From Verrucomicrobiota bacterium (GTDB lineage: Bacteria; Verrucomicrobiota; Verrucomicrobiia; Verrucomicrobiales; DEV007), in NCBI GenBank assembly GCA_030625775.1, contig DAOUQC010000031.1, positions 1 through 49,657 on the forward strand: a stretch of 49,657 nt of DNA, in the 5' to 3' direction. The position numbers were made by a program, and so were the translations under genes. The notes below the pieces were generated by a model that was not told the origin of the DNA, did no database searches, and saw only the letters and a list, made by a program, of their open reading frames with translations. Positions 28,115 to 35,495 of this stretch are shown one piece after another (position 1 is the first letter of the stretch; each line of letters opens with the position of its first letter).

Positions 28115-28573
28115 ATGAACACAAAAATGTATGTGGGGAATCTCCCCTATGAAACCACTGAAGATGATATTCGCACACTGTTTTCCGCGCATGGTCAGGT
28201 GAACGACATCGCTGTCGTCATGGATCGCGAAACCGGTCGACCACGCGGATTTGCTTTTGTCACAATGAACGACAAGGATGGCATGGAAGCCGCAATTCGC
28301 GAGCTGGATGGCCATGACTTCAAGGGACGGCAACTGAAAATCAATGAAGCACGCCCTCGTGAAAATCGCAGTGGCGGAGGAGGAGGAGGCGGCGGCGGCG
28401 GCGGCTATCGCGGTAACAGTGGTGGCGGCGGCGGTGACTACGGCGGTGGTGGCGGTGGTGGTGGTGACTACGGCGGCGGTGGCGGTGGCGGTGGCGGCGG
28501 TGGTGGCTACGGTAAACGCAAAAGTGGCGGAGGAAGTCGCAAAGGCGGCAGACGGAAGGAAGAAGGCTGGTAG
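28115..28573 (+). CDS. RRM RNA-binding protein with Gly-rich tail
   Basis: 152 residues. Residues 4-80 are a single RNA-recognition motif with RNP2 MYVGNL and RNP1 RGFAFVTM, both intact. Residues 88-138 are almost only Gly with Tyr, Asp, Ser and Arg ([11 protein letters not shown] type), followed by a short basic end ([18 protein letters not shown]). Such bacterial RRM proteins bind single-stranded RNA and are often cold-induced. A TATAAG at 28032-28037 could be its -10 box, giving a leader of about 70 nt. Followed by a strong terminator, so expressed as a single-gene unit. The DEAD-box helicase with a similar tail is 1.5 kb away. Confidence 0.92.
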
Positions 28574-28670: not shown

Positions 28671-29426
28671 ATGAGTCCCAAACCACAATTTCAGGAACTC
28701 GATTATCGTAAAACCTCACTCGGCGAGCTTATCCTCAGACGCCGCACCGTACTTTCCCTGGATAATCTAGAAGTCCACGAGATCATCCTTGGTGACAGCT
28801 TTCTCATGTCCAGCCTCTTCACTGCGGTTGAGGTAGCCCTCTCCGATCTTGGCCTCGCTGCACTGGAAAACTCTAAGCACAGCGACTCTGAATGGGATGT
28901 TGTCGTTGGAGGACTGGGCTTGGGTTACACGGCACGCGCCGCACTCAAAAACCCCAAAGTCCGCTCACTCGCTGTCGTCGAAACTCTTGAGGCCGTCATC
29001 GACTGGCACCAGCAGGCATTGGTTCCTCTTGGCCCGGAACTGACCGGCGATTCTCGATGTCATTTTGTCCACGGCGATTTTTTTGCTCTAGCCCTCGACA
29101 CGAGTGACTCCGCCAGCTTTGATCCGGAAAAACCCGGACAAAAGCTTCATGCGGTGCTGCTCGATATCGATCACTCGCCGAGCAAACTGCTGGACGAGCA
29201 AAATGGCAAATTCTATCAAACTGAAGGGTTACGCTGCCTGGCGGATAAACTTCATCCCGGAGGCATCTTCGCCCTGTGGTCAGACGACCCACCCGATGAT
29301 GATTTTATGAAGTCGCTCGAAGAGGTTTTCGTCTCCTGTGAGTCTCACATCGTCACTTTTGACAATCCGATTCGCGGCGGCGAGTCATCGAGTACGGTCT
29401 ACATCGCACGGCGTTCGCCTACATAA
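28671..29426 (+). CDS. Spermidine-synthase-like SAM-fold protein (copy A)
   Basis: 251 residues, class I methyltransferase fold of the polyamine-aminopropyltransferase superfamily. The glycine-rich nucleotide loop is VVVGGLGLGYTARAAL (residues 80-85 GGLGLG). The acidic strand end is VVETLEAVIDWHQQ, and LDIDHSPSKLL is the motif-IV region; GGIFALWSDDPPDDDF closes the domain. The Asp-Tyr pair typical of true spermidine synthases was not seen, so the substrate is open. Its 3' end overlaps by 28 bp the 3' end of a clearly related gene on the other strand. Cytoplasmic. Confidence 0.82.
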   Translation: MSPKPQFQELDYRKTSLGELILRRRTVLSLDNLEVHEIILGDSFLMSSLFTAVEVALSDLGLAALENSKHSDSEWDVVVGGLGLGYTARAALKNPKVRSLAVVETLEAVIDWHQQALVPLGPELTGDSRCHFVHGDFFALALDTSDSASFDPEKPGQKLHAVLLDIDHSPSKLLDEQNGKFYQTEGLRCLADKLHPGGIFALWSDDPPDDDFMKSLEEVFVSCESHIVTFDNPIRGGESSSTVYIARRSPT

Positions 29427-30079
29427 ATCCGGTTGGCTGCCCGTTTGGCACGCTCGTGAGTTTTGGCCTCGATCTCTTCAGCGTCAAAACCCGCCTTGCG
29501 CAACTGACGAAAAAAACCCGGCTCCGGATCTGCCGACCAGAATGCAGCGTGCCCTCGCTCTTTTAGTGAATCGTAAACCATCGCCAAGCCATTCTCATCG
29601 TAGAGCCTCGCATTGTCAGACTGCACAAATGCTGCCGGGCCATTATCGACATCCAGCAAAATCGCATCGTAATAGGATGCTCCACTTTGCATGATGCAGT
29701 CATAGACATCTCCGGCAAAAATGCTCACCCGTTGATCATCGAGCAAGGCCCCGTTTAAATCGCCCAGGTGTTCACGGTTCCAGTCAATCACTTCAGGTAT
29801 CAACTCGGCCACACAAACTTTCGCAGATTTTCCCACCAGTTCCAATACTCGCTTGAGACTAAATCCCAATCCCAGTCCACCCACCAAAACTCTCGGTGAC
29901 CGAGACTTGTCGCAACACCGGCAAGCGGCATCCGCCAGCATTGCTTCGGACAAGGTCCAACCGGAACTCATTAACTGAGAACCATTCAGCTTCAGGGAAT
30001 ACTGTCCATCGTGTTCGTGCAGAGAAAAACGGGCGCCATCCGGTGTCCGTGTCTCCGCCAAATTACGTGTCGGTTTCAT
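29399..30079 (-). CDS. Spermidine-synthase-like SAM-fold protein (copy B)
   Basis: 226 residues, a paralogue of the gene that converges on it. Matching blocks: VLVGGLGLGFSLKRVLEL (67-72 GGLGLG), VAELIPEVIDWNREHLGDL, DAILLDVDNGPAAFV, YDENGLAMVYDSLKERG and AAFWSADPEPGFFRQL. The first 50 residues differ from copy A and carry DGARFSLHEHDGQYSLKLNG. SAM- or decarboxySAM-dependent transferase by fold; substrate unknown. The stop (cta at 29399-29401) lies inside the last codons of copy A. Its start is 6 bp downstream of the stop of the DEAD-box helicase gene on the same strand, so it may be transcribed with the helicase. Confidence 0.82.
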   Translation of the reverse strand: MKPTRNLAETRTPDGARFSLHEHDGQYSLKLNGSQLMSSGWTLSEAMLADAACRCCDKSRSPRVLVGGLGLGFSLKRVLELVGKSAKVCVAELIPEVIDWNREHLGDLNGALLDDQRVSIFAGDVYDCIMQSGASYYDAILLDVDNGPAAFVQSDNARLYDENGLAMVYDSLKERGHAAFWSADPEPGFFRQLRKAGFDAEEIEAKTHERAKRAANRIYVGERRAM

Positions 30080-30085
30080 CTAAGG

Positions 30086-31432
30086 TCAGGCAGCACTGCG
30101 ATTACCCGACGATCGACGACGGGAAGAATTACGGCGTCTCCCAGAAGAAGATCGACCACCACCGCCACCACCACTGCTTCGGCGGCTCGAATATCCACCA
30201 TCTCCGGAACGTCGTCCTCCGCCCCCACGTCCATTTCTCTTCTTTTCCGCCGCCGCGTTGACATCAGCCTCGTTCATCTGGAAACCCTCGATATCCTCAA
30301 CCGGAATGGAACGTTTCAAAAGTCGTTCGATATCCCGCAAAAGTCCACGCTCGTCGGCGCTGACCAATGAATGGGCCGCCCCCTCTTCTCCTGCTCGTCC
30401 GGTACGTCCGATGCGATGCACGTAATCTTCAGGGACATTCGGCAGGTCAAAGTTTACAACATGCGGCAGGCGATTGATATCAATCCCACGCGAGGCCACA
30501 TCCGTAGCCACCAGCACTCGGACCCTCCCTGATTTGAAATCTGCCAGAGCTTTGGTTCGTGCTCCCTGACTCTTGTTGCCATGAATCGCCGTTGCGGAAA
30601 TACCGTCACTGTCCAGCTGTTTTGCCAGGCGATTGGAACCGTGTTTGGTGCGATTAAAAACCAACACCTGATTCCATTCCCGGTCGCGAATGAGATGGGC
30701 CAGCAAAAAACGTTTTTCGACTTTTGCCACCGGATGCACCACCTGCTCCACTTTCTCGGCAGCCGTATTGCGACGAGCCACCTCGACAAAAACCGGGTCA
30801 TGCAAAATGCCTTCGGACAGTTTCTTGATCTCGTCCGAGTAAGTCGCAGAAAAAAGCAAATTCTGACGACGACCCGGCAGAAGCTTCAATATCTTACGAA
30901 TGTCGTGAATGAATCCCATGTCCAACATGCGGTCCGCTTCATCCAGCACCAGGATTTCGATTTGGGAAAGATCAACCGTGCCCTGCCCTGCATGATCGAG
31001 CAAACGGCCGGGCGTGGCGATGAGAATATCGACCCCACGACGCAAACGGCTGATCTGTGGATTAATCCCCACCCCACCAAAAATGACGGTAGAACTGAGT
31101 TCCAGTCCTTTGCCATAATTGACCACGCTTTCACCGATCTGCGCCGCCAATTCGCGAGTAGGCGTGATGATCAGAGCCCGCGGCAAATGGCGGCGGCGCT
31201 TTCCATTGCGATTAGAATCAGAGGGAGCCGGACGTTGTTCGGCCAGCAGTTGAAGCAAGGGCAAGGTAAAAGCCGCCGTCTTTCCAGTGCCGGTCTGTGC
31301 TCCCCCCAACAGATCACGGCCATCGAGAATAGGTGGAATAGCCTTTGCCTGAATCTGGCTGGGTTCTGTGTAGCCTTTTGCAGCTACTGCTTCGAGTAAT
31401 TCGGCACGCAGGCCGAGTTGATTAAATGACAT
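30086..31432 (-). CDS. DEAD-box RNA helicase, RhlE-like, with basic Gly/Ser tail
   Basis: 448 residues. Motifs in order: Q motif FNQLGL and GYTEPSQIQ, motif I AQTGTGKT (45-52), PTRELA (91-96), GG, TPGRLLD, DEAD (164-167), SAT (195-197), [13 protein letters not shown] and [10 protein letters not shown]. The helicase core ends near residue 375. From about 390 on, the tail is unstructured Arg/Gly/Ser ([22 protein letters not shown] type), suited to RNA binding. Unwinds RNA duplexes in ribosome assembly or mRNA turnover by family knowledge. The gene for SAM-fold copy B starts 6 bp downstream of its stop. Confidence 0.95.
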
Positions 31433-31852: not shown

Positions 31853-32932
31853 ATGTCCGACCATATCCGACTCTACATTCCCGGCCCGATCGAAGTTTCA
31901 CCGAGTAGCTTTGAAGCCATGTCTACACCGATGATTGGGCATCGTGGCAAAGAGTTCCAGGAGCTTTACGGCGGTATGCAGGAGCGCCTGCAAACGCTTT
32001 TCGAAACCAAACAACCGGTCTTTCTCAGCACCTCTTCAGCCTGGGGAATCATGGAAGGCTCGCTGCGCAACCTGGTCGCTAAAAAGGTGCTGTGCTGTGG
32101 CAATGGGGCCTTCTCGGACAAGTGGGTCGATGTCGCTCAACGTTGTGGCAAGCAGGCCGAAGGGCTGATGTTCGAATGGGGACAGCCCGTCGATCCTGAG
32201 GCAGTCAGAGAGAAACTCAACTCCGGCGAGTTCGATGCCGTGACTTTGGTCCACAATGAAACTTCCACCGGCGTCACCAGCCCCTTGGCCGAGATCGCTG
32301 CCGTGGTGCGTGAATTCGAAGACGTGATGTTGATCGTCGACACCGTTTCATCGTTCTCCGCAGTGCCGACACCGGTCGACGCACTCGGCATTGATGTCAT
32401 GCTCACCGGCAGCCAGAAAGCCCTGGCCCTGCCTCCCGGCCTGGCTCTGTTCACTGTGTCGGATGCCGCTTTTGCTCGCGCCGAGACTTTGAATGATCGT
32501 GGTTATTACTTTGATTTTCTCGAATTCAAAAAGAACCAGGAGAAAAACATGACCCCCAGCACTCCGTGTATTCACACCATCAACGGACTGAGTGCCAAGC
32601 TGGATGACATCTTTAACGAAGGACTTGGAAATCGTTATGCCCGCCACGAGCGGCTCAACGGTCTGGTCGCCGACTGGGTCACCAACAACGGCTTTGAGTT
32701 TTTTGCGCCGGAAGGTTTCCGTTCCAAGAGTCTGACTTGTATCAAAAACAACCGTGAGATCGACGTGCCGCGTTTCAGCCAATTGATACGCAAAAATCAT
32801 TCCATCGCCATCAATGGCGGTTACGGAAAGATCAAAGGTCTCACCTTCCGGGTTTCGAACATGGGTAACGAAACCGATGAAACCATGGGGGAAGTGCTGG
32901 CGGCGATGGATGATTCGCTTGCCAAGCTTTGA
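31853..32932 (+). CDS. Class V aminotransferase (alanine/serine-glyoxylate type)
   Basis: 359 residues from the ATG at 31853, where family homology begins (IRLYIPGPIEVSPS). The frame extends 47 codons upstream but those residues are not family-like. PLP fold-type I features: GHRGKEFQELY, STSSAWGIMEGSLRNLV, Asp163 in LIVDTVSSFSAVP, and the Schiff-base Lys189 in TGSQKALALPPGLAL. A small-molecule aminotransferase acting on alanine, serine or a related donor with a 2-oxo acid. First of three rightward genes with gaps of 27 and 1 bp, so co-expression with the epimerase and DUF1611 genes is expected. Cytoplasmic. Confidence 0.92.
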   Translation: MSDHIRLYIPGPIEVSPSSFEAMSTPMIGHRGKEFQELYGGMQERLQTLFETKQPVFLSTSSAWGIMEGSLRNLVAKKVLCCGNGAFSDKWVDVAQRCGKQAEGLMFEWGQPVDPEAVREKLNSGEFDAVTLVHNETSTGVTSPLAEIAAVVREFEDVMLIVDTVSSFSAVPTPVDALGIDVMLTGSQKALALPPGLALFTVSDAAFARAETLNDRGYYFDFLEFKKNQEKNMTPSTPCIHTINGLSAKLDDIFNEGLGNRYARHERLNGLVADWVTNNGFEFFAPEGFRSKSLTCIKNNREIDVPRFSQLIRKNHSIAINGGYGKIKGLTFRVSNMGNETDETMGEVLAAMDDSLAKL

Positions 32933-32959
32933 TTATTCTGAACATTGCAGGCACCCGCT

Positions 32960-34015
32960 ATGGAAATCAGCTTCCGCACCCTTCGTCTCAACAAGCTCTA
33001 CCCGCTCAGGATCAGCCGCGGCACATCCACCGGTTCAGACAATCTCTACGTCGGACTCACCAAGGACGGCATCACTGGCTGGGGGGAAATGTCACCCGGC
33101 ATCAGTGAAAAAGCATCAACCCCTCAAATCGGTGAGGATGCTTTGAAAGAATTCTGGAATCCTGCCTTTGGTGATCTCTCCATCCAGGAAGTCTGGGACA
33201 AAGCTCGTCAGGCTGGTGTGCCTGCCTGCGCACTGGCTGCTCTCGATGTTGCCCGATGGGATTGGTATGGGAAAAAATGCGGACAGCCTCTTCACCAGGT
33301 TTTTGGCCTGTCGAAAAAAATGGCGTCTACTTCCGTTACGATCGGCATCAACCCTCCGGAAGTCGTCAAAGAACGCGTGCCTGAAATACTGGAACGCACA
33401 GGCAGTAAGTTTCTAAAAATCAAACTGGGATCTCCCGAGGGATGTGAAGCTGATCAAGCGATGTTTGCCGCGATCAAAGAAGTCGTCGGCGATCGCAATG
33501 ACCTCGCGCTGCGAGTCGACGCCAACGGTGGCTGGTCCCCGGACGAAGCCGTAGATATGATGAAATGGCTGGCTGAGCGTGGAGTGGAATATGTCGAGCA
33601 ACCCTTGAAAGAAGGTGAAGAAAAACATCTGCCAAGACTTTTTAAAAACCGCCCTCTGCCGATTTATGTCGATGAGTCCTGCCGTTTTTCGGAAAACATT
33701 CCCCACTGGGTTGATTCGGTTGACGGAGTGAACTTGAAACTGATGAAGTGCGGCGGACTGACCGAAGCACTGCGCATCGTCGCCACCGCCCGTGCCCACA
33801 AGGTGAAGGTCATGATCGGTTGCATGAGTGAATCCACCCTGTCCATTTCCGCAGGCGCATCAATCGGTGCTCTGTTTGACGCCATTGACCTCGATTCCCA
33901 GCTAAACATCACTAACGACCCCTGCCGTGGAGCAACGCTGATCGACGGCGGCGTATTACCCAACGACTTGCCCGGACACGGAGCAGTCTTCATCGACCAG
34001 GAGGAGGAGAACTGA
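32960..34015 (+). CDS. Enolase-superfamily epimerase, dipeptide-epimerase/DgcA-like
   Basis: 351 residues from the ATG at 32960; a TTG at 32945 adds only five residues. Muconate-lactonising-type enolase superfamily. Catalytic and metal residues are in place: Lys153-x-Lys155 in LKIKLG, Asp187 in RVDANGGW, Glu213 in VEQPL, Asp238 in YVDES, and Lys263 in LKLMKCGG; the capping loop GCMSEST is also present. Known members epimerise Ala-Glu dipeptides or, as DgcA, racemise N-acetyl-D-glutamate. The pairing with a DUF1611 (DgcN-type) gene 1 bp downstream favours the second reading, as inference. Second gene of the operon. Cytoplasmic. Confidence 0.87.
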   Translation: MEISFRTLRLNKLYPLRISRGTSTGSDNLYVGLTKDGITGWGEMSPGISEKASTPQIGEDALKEFWNPAFGDLSIQEVWDKARQAGVPACALAALDVARWDWYGKKCGQPLHQVFGLSKKMASTSVTIGINPPEVVKERVPEILERTGSKFLKIKLGSPEGCEADQAMFAAIKEVVGDRNDLALRVDANGGWSPDEAVDMMKWLAERGVEYVEQPLKEGEEKHLPRLFKNRPLPIYVDESCRFSENIPHWVDSVDGVNLKLMKCGGLTEALRIVATARAHKVKVMIGCMSESTLSISAGASIGALFDAIDLDSQLNITNDPCRGATLIDGGVLPNDLPGHGAVFIDQEEEN

Positions 34016-34019
34016 AATG
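34001..34019 (+). promoter_or_regulatory. Strong Shine-Dalgarno for the DUF1611 gene
   Basis: AGGAGGAG lies inside the last codons of the epimerase gene, about 9 nt before the ATG at 34017. It is the clearest SD in the window, where most genes have weak ones. It supports tight translational coupling of the two proteins. Confidence 0.75.
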
Positions 34020-35054
34020 CTGAAACCCGAACAAAGCTTAGCCATTTTCATGGAAGAAAACCTCGGCGAATCCGAAGGTAAAATGGGTTACGGCGTGATG
34101 CGCTATTCTCCCAATGAAGTCACCTGTGTGATCGATTCCCGGCATGCTGGAAAACAAGTCAACGATGTGGTCGACATGCCGCACAACTGTCCGGTTGTCG
34201 CCAATGTGGAAGAAGCCCATAAACTCGGTGCCGATGTTTTGATCCTCGGCATCGCGCCCACCGGAGGACGTTTGCCTGACCCGTGGCTGGCTGAACTTGA
34301 AACAGCTCTCACTCTTGGCATGTCGCTCGCCAACGGCTTGCACGATGACTTGAATGCCCGCTTTGGACATTTGCTCAAGGAGGATCAGTGGATCTGGGAC
34401 ATTCGCCACCCGGGAGAAGATCCACCCATTACCAGTGCCGATGCCACACGTCTCGACAACAAACGTGTGTTGTTAATTGGAACAGACATGGCCATTGGCA
34501 AAATGACCGCTGGCCTTGAAATCTATCGCTGGGTGCGTAATCACGGACAGCAGTCCACCGCCTTTCTAGCTACCGGCCAGATTGGGATCACCATCACTGG
34601 TCGAGGCATTCCCCTGGACGGCATCAAAATTGATCACGCTGTCAATGCGGTGTCCACTCTGGTCACCAGTGCAGCCGAAGATGACATCGTTTTCATCGAA
34701 GGCCAGGGTTCTCTCTTACACGCCCGCAGTTCGGCAACCCTCGCCCTGATGCGTGGCAGCTGTCCGACCCACTTCATTCTCTGCCACCGGGCAGGGATGG
34801 AAAATCTCGATCAAATGCCGGAAGTCAAAGTCCCGGATCTCAAAGAGTTTATCAAACTCAACGAAGACCTCGCATCTGCCTGCGGCACCTACCCCCGACC
34901 AAAGACCATCGGCATCGCTCTGAAAACCGCCCATCTGAGCGACGAGGAAGCCAAAGCAGCCATCGCCGATCTCGAAGAACAGACCGGACTCCCTGTCACT
35001 GACGTGGTCCGCTACGGCGCAGAGAAGCTAGGCCGATTGTTGATATCGGAGTAA
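34017..35054 (+). CDS. DUF1611 protein, DgcN-like
   Basis: 345 residues. The N-terminal DUF1611_N-like part runs to about residue 145 (VMRYSPNEVTCVIDSRHAGKQ, ILGIAPTGGRLP), then a P-loop-like GTDMAIGKMTA at about 160 followed by STAFLATGQIGITITGRGIPLDG and VFIEGQGSLLHARSSA. DUF1611 includes DgcN, described as a D-glutamate N-acetyltransferase acting with DgcA in marine bacteria and haloarchaea. Whether this copy has that substrate is inference. The start is 1 bp after the epimerase stop with a strong SD. No acetyltransferase GNAT motif is present. Cytoplasmic. Confidence 0.85.
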   Translation: MLKPEQSLAIFMEENLGESEGKMGYGVMRYSPNEVTCVIDSRHAGKQVNDVVDMPHNCPVVANVEEAHKLGADVLILGIAPTGGRLPDPWLAELETALTLGMSLANGLHDDLNARFGHLLKEDQWIWDIRHPGEDPPITSADATRLDNKRVLLIGTDMAIGKMTAGLEIYRWVRNHGQQSTAFLATGQIGITITGRGIPLDGIKIDHAVNAVSTLVTSAAEDDIVFIEGQGSLLHARSSATLALMRGSCPTHFILCHRAGMENLDQMPEVKVPDLKEFIKLNEDLASACGTYPRPKTIGIALKTAHLSDEEAKAAIADLEEQTGLPVTDVVRYGAEKLGRLLISE

Positions 35055-35099: not shown

Positions 35100-35495
35100 A
35101 TGCCCAGGAGACAGACAAAAACAAAAGGCGGGACGCATCAAGCTTTGATCAACTGCTCGTTCGAAAGTCGAGTTGTGAGTTGGCTGATGCAGGATGGCTG
35201 GCAGGTATTCACGCCAGTATTAGATTATGGGCATCAAACCGACATCCTGATCTCAGATGGCCCGAACTATCATCGCATCCAAATCAAAACCGTTGATGCC
35301 AAATCAGAAAATCAAATCGTAGAAAACAGATGGATAGGCAGCAATGTGGATTGCGTAGTGTATTTCGCCCGGAACTCTAACTGGGGCTTTGTGCTTCCTG
35401 CATTTACCCAGAAAAAAAGGAAACTAAATACCAAAGGCCATATCAAATTCAAGCAAACAAAAAACGAGTTCCTGAAGGCGTTTCATAAAATATGA
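35100..35495 (+). CDS. PD-(D/E)XK-like endonuclease-fold ORF
   Basis: 131 residues. A helix with conserved Ser-Phe-Glu (INCSFESRVVSWLMQDGW) is followed by YGHQTDILISDGPNYHRIQIKTV, in which the Asp of TDIL and the Q-x-K of IQIKT fit motif D-x(n)-(E/Q)xK of PD-(D/E)XK nucleases such as group I intron endonuclease-like and restriction-type proteins. It then has DCVVYFARNSNWGFVLP and a basic end. No methyltransferase is beside it. The GAGG/AAAGGA spacing before the ATG is weak. Flanked by inverted repeats and on the same strand as the DUF1611 gene (45 bp). Probably a small transferable nuclease ORF; function unproven. Confidence 0.7.
   Translation: MPRRQTKTKGGTHQALINCSFESRVVSWLMQDGWQVFTPVLDYGHQTDILISDGPNYHRIQIKTVDAKSENQIVENRWIGSNVDCVVYFARNSNWGFVLPAFTQKKRKLNTKGHIKFKQTKNEFLKAFHKI

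Follow-up and report, generated by a model that had tools for sequence, protein, structure and literature searches.

In a 49,657-nucleotide stretch of DNA from a Verrucomicrobiota bacterium (the window), an enolase-superfamily epimerase gene and a DUF1611 gene stand side by side, and there is strong evidence that the two form a translationally coupled two-gene module. The module is old, and its proteins, as judged from their sequences, make up a sister clade of DgcA and DgcN rather than belonging to those families. On balance we favor a reading in which the epimerase and the DUF1611 protein would invert a D-amino acid via an N-acyl intermediate, and the class V aminotransferase encoded in front of them would be a resident phosphoserine aminotransferase outside the route.

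Table 1 Features of the aminotransferase–epimerase–DUF1611 region, in window coordinates.
Feature	Position	Strand	Remarks
Class V aminotransferase, 359 aa	31853-32932	+	Open frame; Pfam Aminotran_5
Aminotransferase–epimerase gap, 27 bp	32933-32959	+	
Enolase-superfamily epimerase (MR_MLE), 351 aa	32960-34015	+	First gene of the conserved pair
Purine-rich ribosome-binding region GGAGGAGGAG and 1-bp junction	33998-34016	+	Couples epimerase and DUF1611 genes
DUF1611 protein, DgcN homolog, 345 aa	34017-35054	+	Second gene of the pair

Rereading the frames bore out the layout described in the first-pass annotation, that is, three genes with gaps of 27 bp and then 1 bp and an SD sequence before the last. 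All three frames are open and intact, and GGAGGAGGAG lies just before the ATG of the DUF1611 gene. The encoded proteins score above the Pfam gathering thresholds for Aminotran_5, MR_MLE_N, MR_MLE_C, DUF1611_N and DUF1611_C, with 209 and 83 bits for the two families that define DUF1611 (PF07755 and PF17396). The gene directly 3′ of DUF1611 (35100-35495) has the same orientation and encodes a small PD-(D/E)XK-like protein that falls below the Pfam cut-off. On the other side of the region, an RNA-binding-motif protein with a long glycine tail (28115-28573) is encoded near an RhlE-type RNA helicase with an Arg/Ser/Gly-rich tail (30086-31432). Two convergent, overlapping genes (28671-29426 and 29399-30079) encode proteins that read as spermidine-synthase-like, with a methyltransferase fold; neither has an NCBIfam match at E 1e-20.

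Scanning species genomes with the DUF1611 alignment yielded the 80 nearest relatives, which mostly share 50–62% identity with the window protein outside its genus and come from Gammaproteobacteria, Alphaproteobacteria, Bacteroidota, Armatimonadota and Verrucomicrobiota. At 78 of these 80 loci an epimerase gene on the same strand stands immediately 5′ of the DUF1611 gene, with a median junction overlap of 8 bp. The neighboring epimerases are 44–68% identical to that of the window, rising to 84–90% within the genus. Two genomes (G163 and G132) have a close DUF1611 relative with no adjoining epimerase, which counts against the pair reading. With 99% support, the DUF1611 tree places the genus together with Gammaproteobacteria, Alphaproteobacteria and Bacteroidota and apart from the other Verrucomicrobiota bearing such genes, which fits lateral acquisition. 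The genus probably acquired the pair downstream of an aminotransferase gene that was already resident.

The pair resembles the dgcR-dgcN-dgcA system of marine Proteobacteria in that homologous proteins are encoded by adjacent, coupled genes and retain their catalytic residues. The DgcN model matches the DUF1611 protein with E 6e-64, and the DgcA model matches the epimerase with E 3e-53. Unlike that system, the window pair has no LysR gene beside it, its order is reversed, it falls in a separate clade with fixed substitutions, and its scores are less than half of the equivalog cut-offs: 216 bits versus 480 for DgcN (NF041892) and 181 bits versus 400 for DgcA (NF042940). Annotated operons in Pantoea, Klebsiella, Vibrio, Sphingobium and Pseudoalteromonas run dgcN then dgcA, whereas in the window the epimerase gene precedes the DUF1611 gene. 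Annotated DgcN proteins and the window type split with 100% SH-aLRT support in the DUF1611 tree, and DgcA and the window type each occupy one side of a fully supported branch in the epimerase tree; both trees were built quickly, have SH-aLRT as their sole support measure and include some long branches. Plain membership in the DgcN and DgcA families was rejected on scores, trees and gene order. The earlier assignment of the two proteins to the DgcN/DgcA type holds insofar as they are homologs that form a conserved pair, but scores and trees show that they are not equivalogs. An extra arginine present in some DgcA proteins (the column of window position 23) was considered and set aside, since it varies within the window clade and is not constant across the DgcA set.

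Solved homologs (2OBN, 7XRJ and 3IJI) already fix the folds of both proteins. The nearest solved structure to the window DUF1611 protein is the cyanobacterial 2OBN, labeled a hypothetical protein, at 44% identity over 336 aligned residues; it is close to the window clade in the tree, yet outside the clade of the conserved pair. DgcN and the window DUF1611 type share invariant P-loop-like GTDxxxGKM and EGQGxLxH motifs, and DgcA and the window epimerase type share an invariant R20, the catalytic lysines and acids, and a DxD motif. These shared residues argue for the same chemistry as in DgcN/DgcA. Fixed differences from DgcN in the P-loop-like region include M158>C, A159>S and T164>Y.

Given this likeness, the pair could be a plain functional DgcN/DgcA that acetylates D-Glu and racemizes N-acetyl-D-Glu as in marine Proteobacteria, which we regard as a genuine possibility, although not the one we expect. 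Homology and pairing of both proteins speak for it, and R20, invariant in both groups, would suit the side chain of Glu. In addition, the pathway has been reported for halophilic archaea, to go by the title of a 2023 ISME J paper cited in PMC12363236, and haloarchaeal DUF1611 proteins lie outside the DgcN clade in our tree. Besides the low scores, the reversed gene order and the complete separation of the clades, however, the epimerase carries fixed differences from DgcA that include R185>I, G190>E and M262>D, and both types are found within one genome. Rhabdonatronobacter encodes a true DgcN (561 bits) together with a window-type protein (228 bits), as does Roseinatronobacter (557 and 225 bits). 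Coexistence with true DgcN in these two Rhodobacteraceae, together with scores far below the cut-offs, suggests that the reaction or the substrate may differ. We know of no activity for the window-type clade.

In two other Verrucomicrobiota an alanine racemase gene comes next after the DUF1611 gene, and the neighbors of a DUF1611 gene in Haladaptatus encode a D-aminoacylase, a serine hydrolase and two dipeptide epimerases; the alanine racemase, D-aminoacylase and dipeptide epimerases beside these relatives support a D-amino-acid theme. The first-pass annotation had proposed peptidoglycan as a possible origin of the D-amino acids; we found nothing that links the window genes to it specifically, although there are the alanine racemase genes of those two Verrucomicrobiota. 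In several Gammaproteobacteria, some of them sponge-associated, an ald-xsc-pta run (alanine dehydrogenase, sulfoacetaldehyde acetyltransferase and phosphate acetyltransferase; loci L018, L020, L025 and L026) lies 5′ of the pair on the same strand, which ties the pair there to taurine or sulfonate breakdown. The arrangement is partial at four further loci (L016, L028, L031 and L039). In Rhodobacteraceae the pair stands at the end of a conserved run of genes for an ABC transporter, a class III aminotransferase, a beta-keto acid cleavage enzyme (KCE), a GNAT protein and a histone-deacetylase-like protein (L050, L051, L052, L054, L069, L078 and L085). The partners in Gammaproteobacteria and Rhodobacteraceae do not name D-Glu. 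The most likely substrate class is an acidic D-amino acid such as D-Glu.

Under a bolder reading, the pair would constitute a parallel N-acyl-racemization route whose D-amino acid is not D-Glu, which gene transfer has carried among marine bacteria and which surveys may have been counting as dgcN. We consider this rather doubtful; should it apply, the sulfoacetaldehyde and alanine dehydrogenase genes linked to the pair in Gammaproteobacteria may give a hint of its substrate. A glyoxylate theme, raised by GhrA, malate synthase and isocitrate lyase genes near some relatives, was rejected, since these genes are mostly convergent or distant and were judged to be family-level synteny. DUF1611 genes also occur in other settings. 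A second DUF1611 gene of Maribacter (L190:1165-6672) lies in a run encoding a PALP enzyme, the DUF1611 protein, a 500-aa protein without a Pfam match, a creatininase and a dipeptide epimerase, which is possibly a biosynthetic cluster. DUF1611 genes of another branch, carried by Vibrio plasmids and by a relative of the window genome (L198, L218 and L012), are followed by a gene for a PLP protein of the alanine/ornithine racemase family.

The catalytic residues of the epimerase (K153-x-K155, D187, E213, D238 and K260) are all present, as the first-pass annotation had stated; they are invariant across the family and conserved in the DgcA group as well. At the end of the barrel the window epimerase also has a DxD motif (D310-L-D312), the element that holds the ammonium group in dipeptide epimerases. 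We think it unlikely that the protein is an L-Ala-D/L-Glu-type dipeptide epimerase for cell-wall peptides, with the DUF1611 protein in an auxiliary role. The closest solved structures (3iji, 3jva and 1jpm) are dipeptide epimerases or labeled muconate cycloisomerase, and the genome holds no second epimerase of the same type. The fold family, the catalytic set and DxD are indeed common to the window protein, the 3iji/BT1313 type and the L-Ala-D/L-Glu epimerase 1jpm. However, DxD is equally invariant in annotated DgcA proteins and therefore cannot discriminate between the two functions; it was dropped as a discriminator. Unlike the 3iji/BT1313-type and 1jpm epimerases, moreover, the window epimerase falls in a separate clade, and its constant partner is DUF1611 rather than a peptidase such as the C40 peptidase beside the Bacteroides dipeptide epimerase.

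The aminotransferase has a different distribution from the pair. Of 57 relatives, 52 have a homolog, most of these with 58–73% identity and those of family f2, which we read as Akkermansia-like in its kinship, with 38–40%; a DUF1611 match was found in 7 of the 57, and a close one in none but the three members of the genus. The aminotransferase gene adjoins the pair only in the genus of the window (three of three species, same strand, all genes intact). Outside it, the only adjacent aminotransferases are two opposite-strand genes with 28–32% identity. The single operon of three genes that had been proposed therefore describes a genus-level arrangement; in other lineages the epimerase and DUF1611 genes alone remain together. 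The first-pass annotation had named a lack of joint conservation in relatives as a refutation, and by this test of its own the link of the aminotransferase to the pair fails.

In the two sister species the aminotransferase–epimerase gap, with the stop codon included, measures 115 bp (L014:1183-1297) and 179 bp (L015:1551-1729) and contains the palindromic repeat GCCCAGGGCATCGCCCTGGG, while the epimerase–DUF1611 junction is still about 1 bp. The longer gap folds better than its shuffles (z -3.2). GCCCAGGGCATCGCCCTGGG is absent from the window, and an inverted pair of it lies elsewhere in the window genome (G000:C66:2977-3113). Scanning the region revealed no promoter-like site, nor was there a terminator-like site on the + strand of the aminotransferase–epimerase gap; read-through from the aminotransferase gene into the pair is possible.

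Several observations suggest that the aminotransferase is most likely the order's phosphoserine (SerC-type) aminotransferase, a neighbor rather than a member of the pair: (i) The window genome encodes a SerA that scores over its cut-off. (ii) Canonical SerC (TIGR01364) was found over its cut-off in none of 38 relatives. (iii) Among the strong class V matches that were examined in the window genome, where SerA is present, the aminotransferase is the sole SerC-like candidate, and the others are cysteine-desulfurase-like. (iv) In the Akkermansia-like genomes the ortholog sits in an aminotransferase–DUF1015–SerA cluster, like other serine clusters. Unlike in such clusters, the gene has no conserved neighbor in the other relatives examined. 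A comparable association has been reported from Caldicellulosiruptor, where a class V aminotransferase and phosphoglycerate dehydrogenase share one putative transcription unit (PMC6391272). The window protein itself scores 32 bits against the TIGR01364 cut-off of 443.6, so it would be at most a functional analog of SerC.

The first-pass annotation had the aminotransferase extend the D-amino-acid route, the three genes acting as one pathway in which it would shift the amino group from the L-amino acid that the pair produces. The genes are adjacent and on the same strand in all three genomes of the genus, and in Vibrio tritonius a true dgcNA operon is followed by a D-amino-acid transaminase gene; nevertheless, an aminotransferase that is nearly universal in the order, mostly without the pair, that adjoins it only in the genus across a gap widened by a repeat in the sister species, and that is the sole SerC-like candidate among the strong class V matches examined in its genome, makes this highly improbable, and on its distribution we rejected it as a pathway member. 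As a three-gene pathway the region is ordinary, because the aminotransferase most likely lies outside it.

N-acylation followed by racemization of the N-acyl compound remains the best-supported reading of the pair. By analogy with DgcN/DgcA, the DUF1611 protein would acetylate the α-amino group of a D-amino acid with acetyl-CoA as donor, the epimerase would racemize the N-acetyl compound by the usual two-lysine, metal-assisted proton transfer, and the L-amino acid would then be freed by a putative general deacylase whose gene lies elsewhere.

A recent marine survey (PMC12363236) describes D-amino acids as an important component of the marine organic matter that degrades slowly, employs dgcN as a marker for the use of acidic D-amino acids and counts it in Bacteroidetes and Gammaproteobacteria. 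Window-type DUF1611 proteins are common in these same two groups. As a variant of the known DgcN/DgcA pathway, the conserved sister clade is of modest interest. If this widespread clade does not use D-Glu, dgcN counts might be affected and the pair would represent a second pathway. The aminotransferase, for its part, offers this Verrucomicrobiota order a concrete candidate for its missing SerC.
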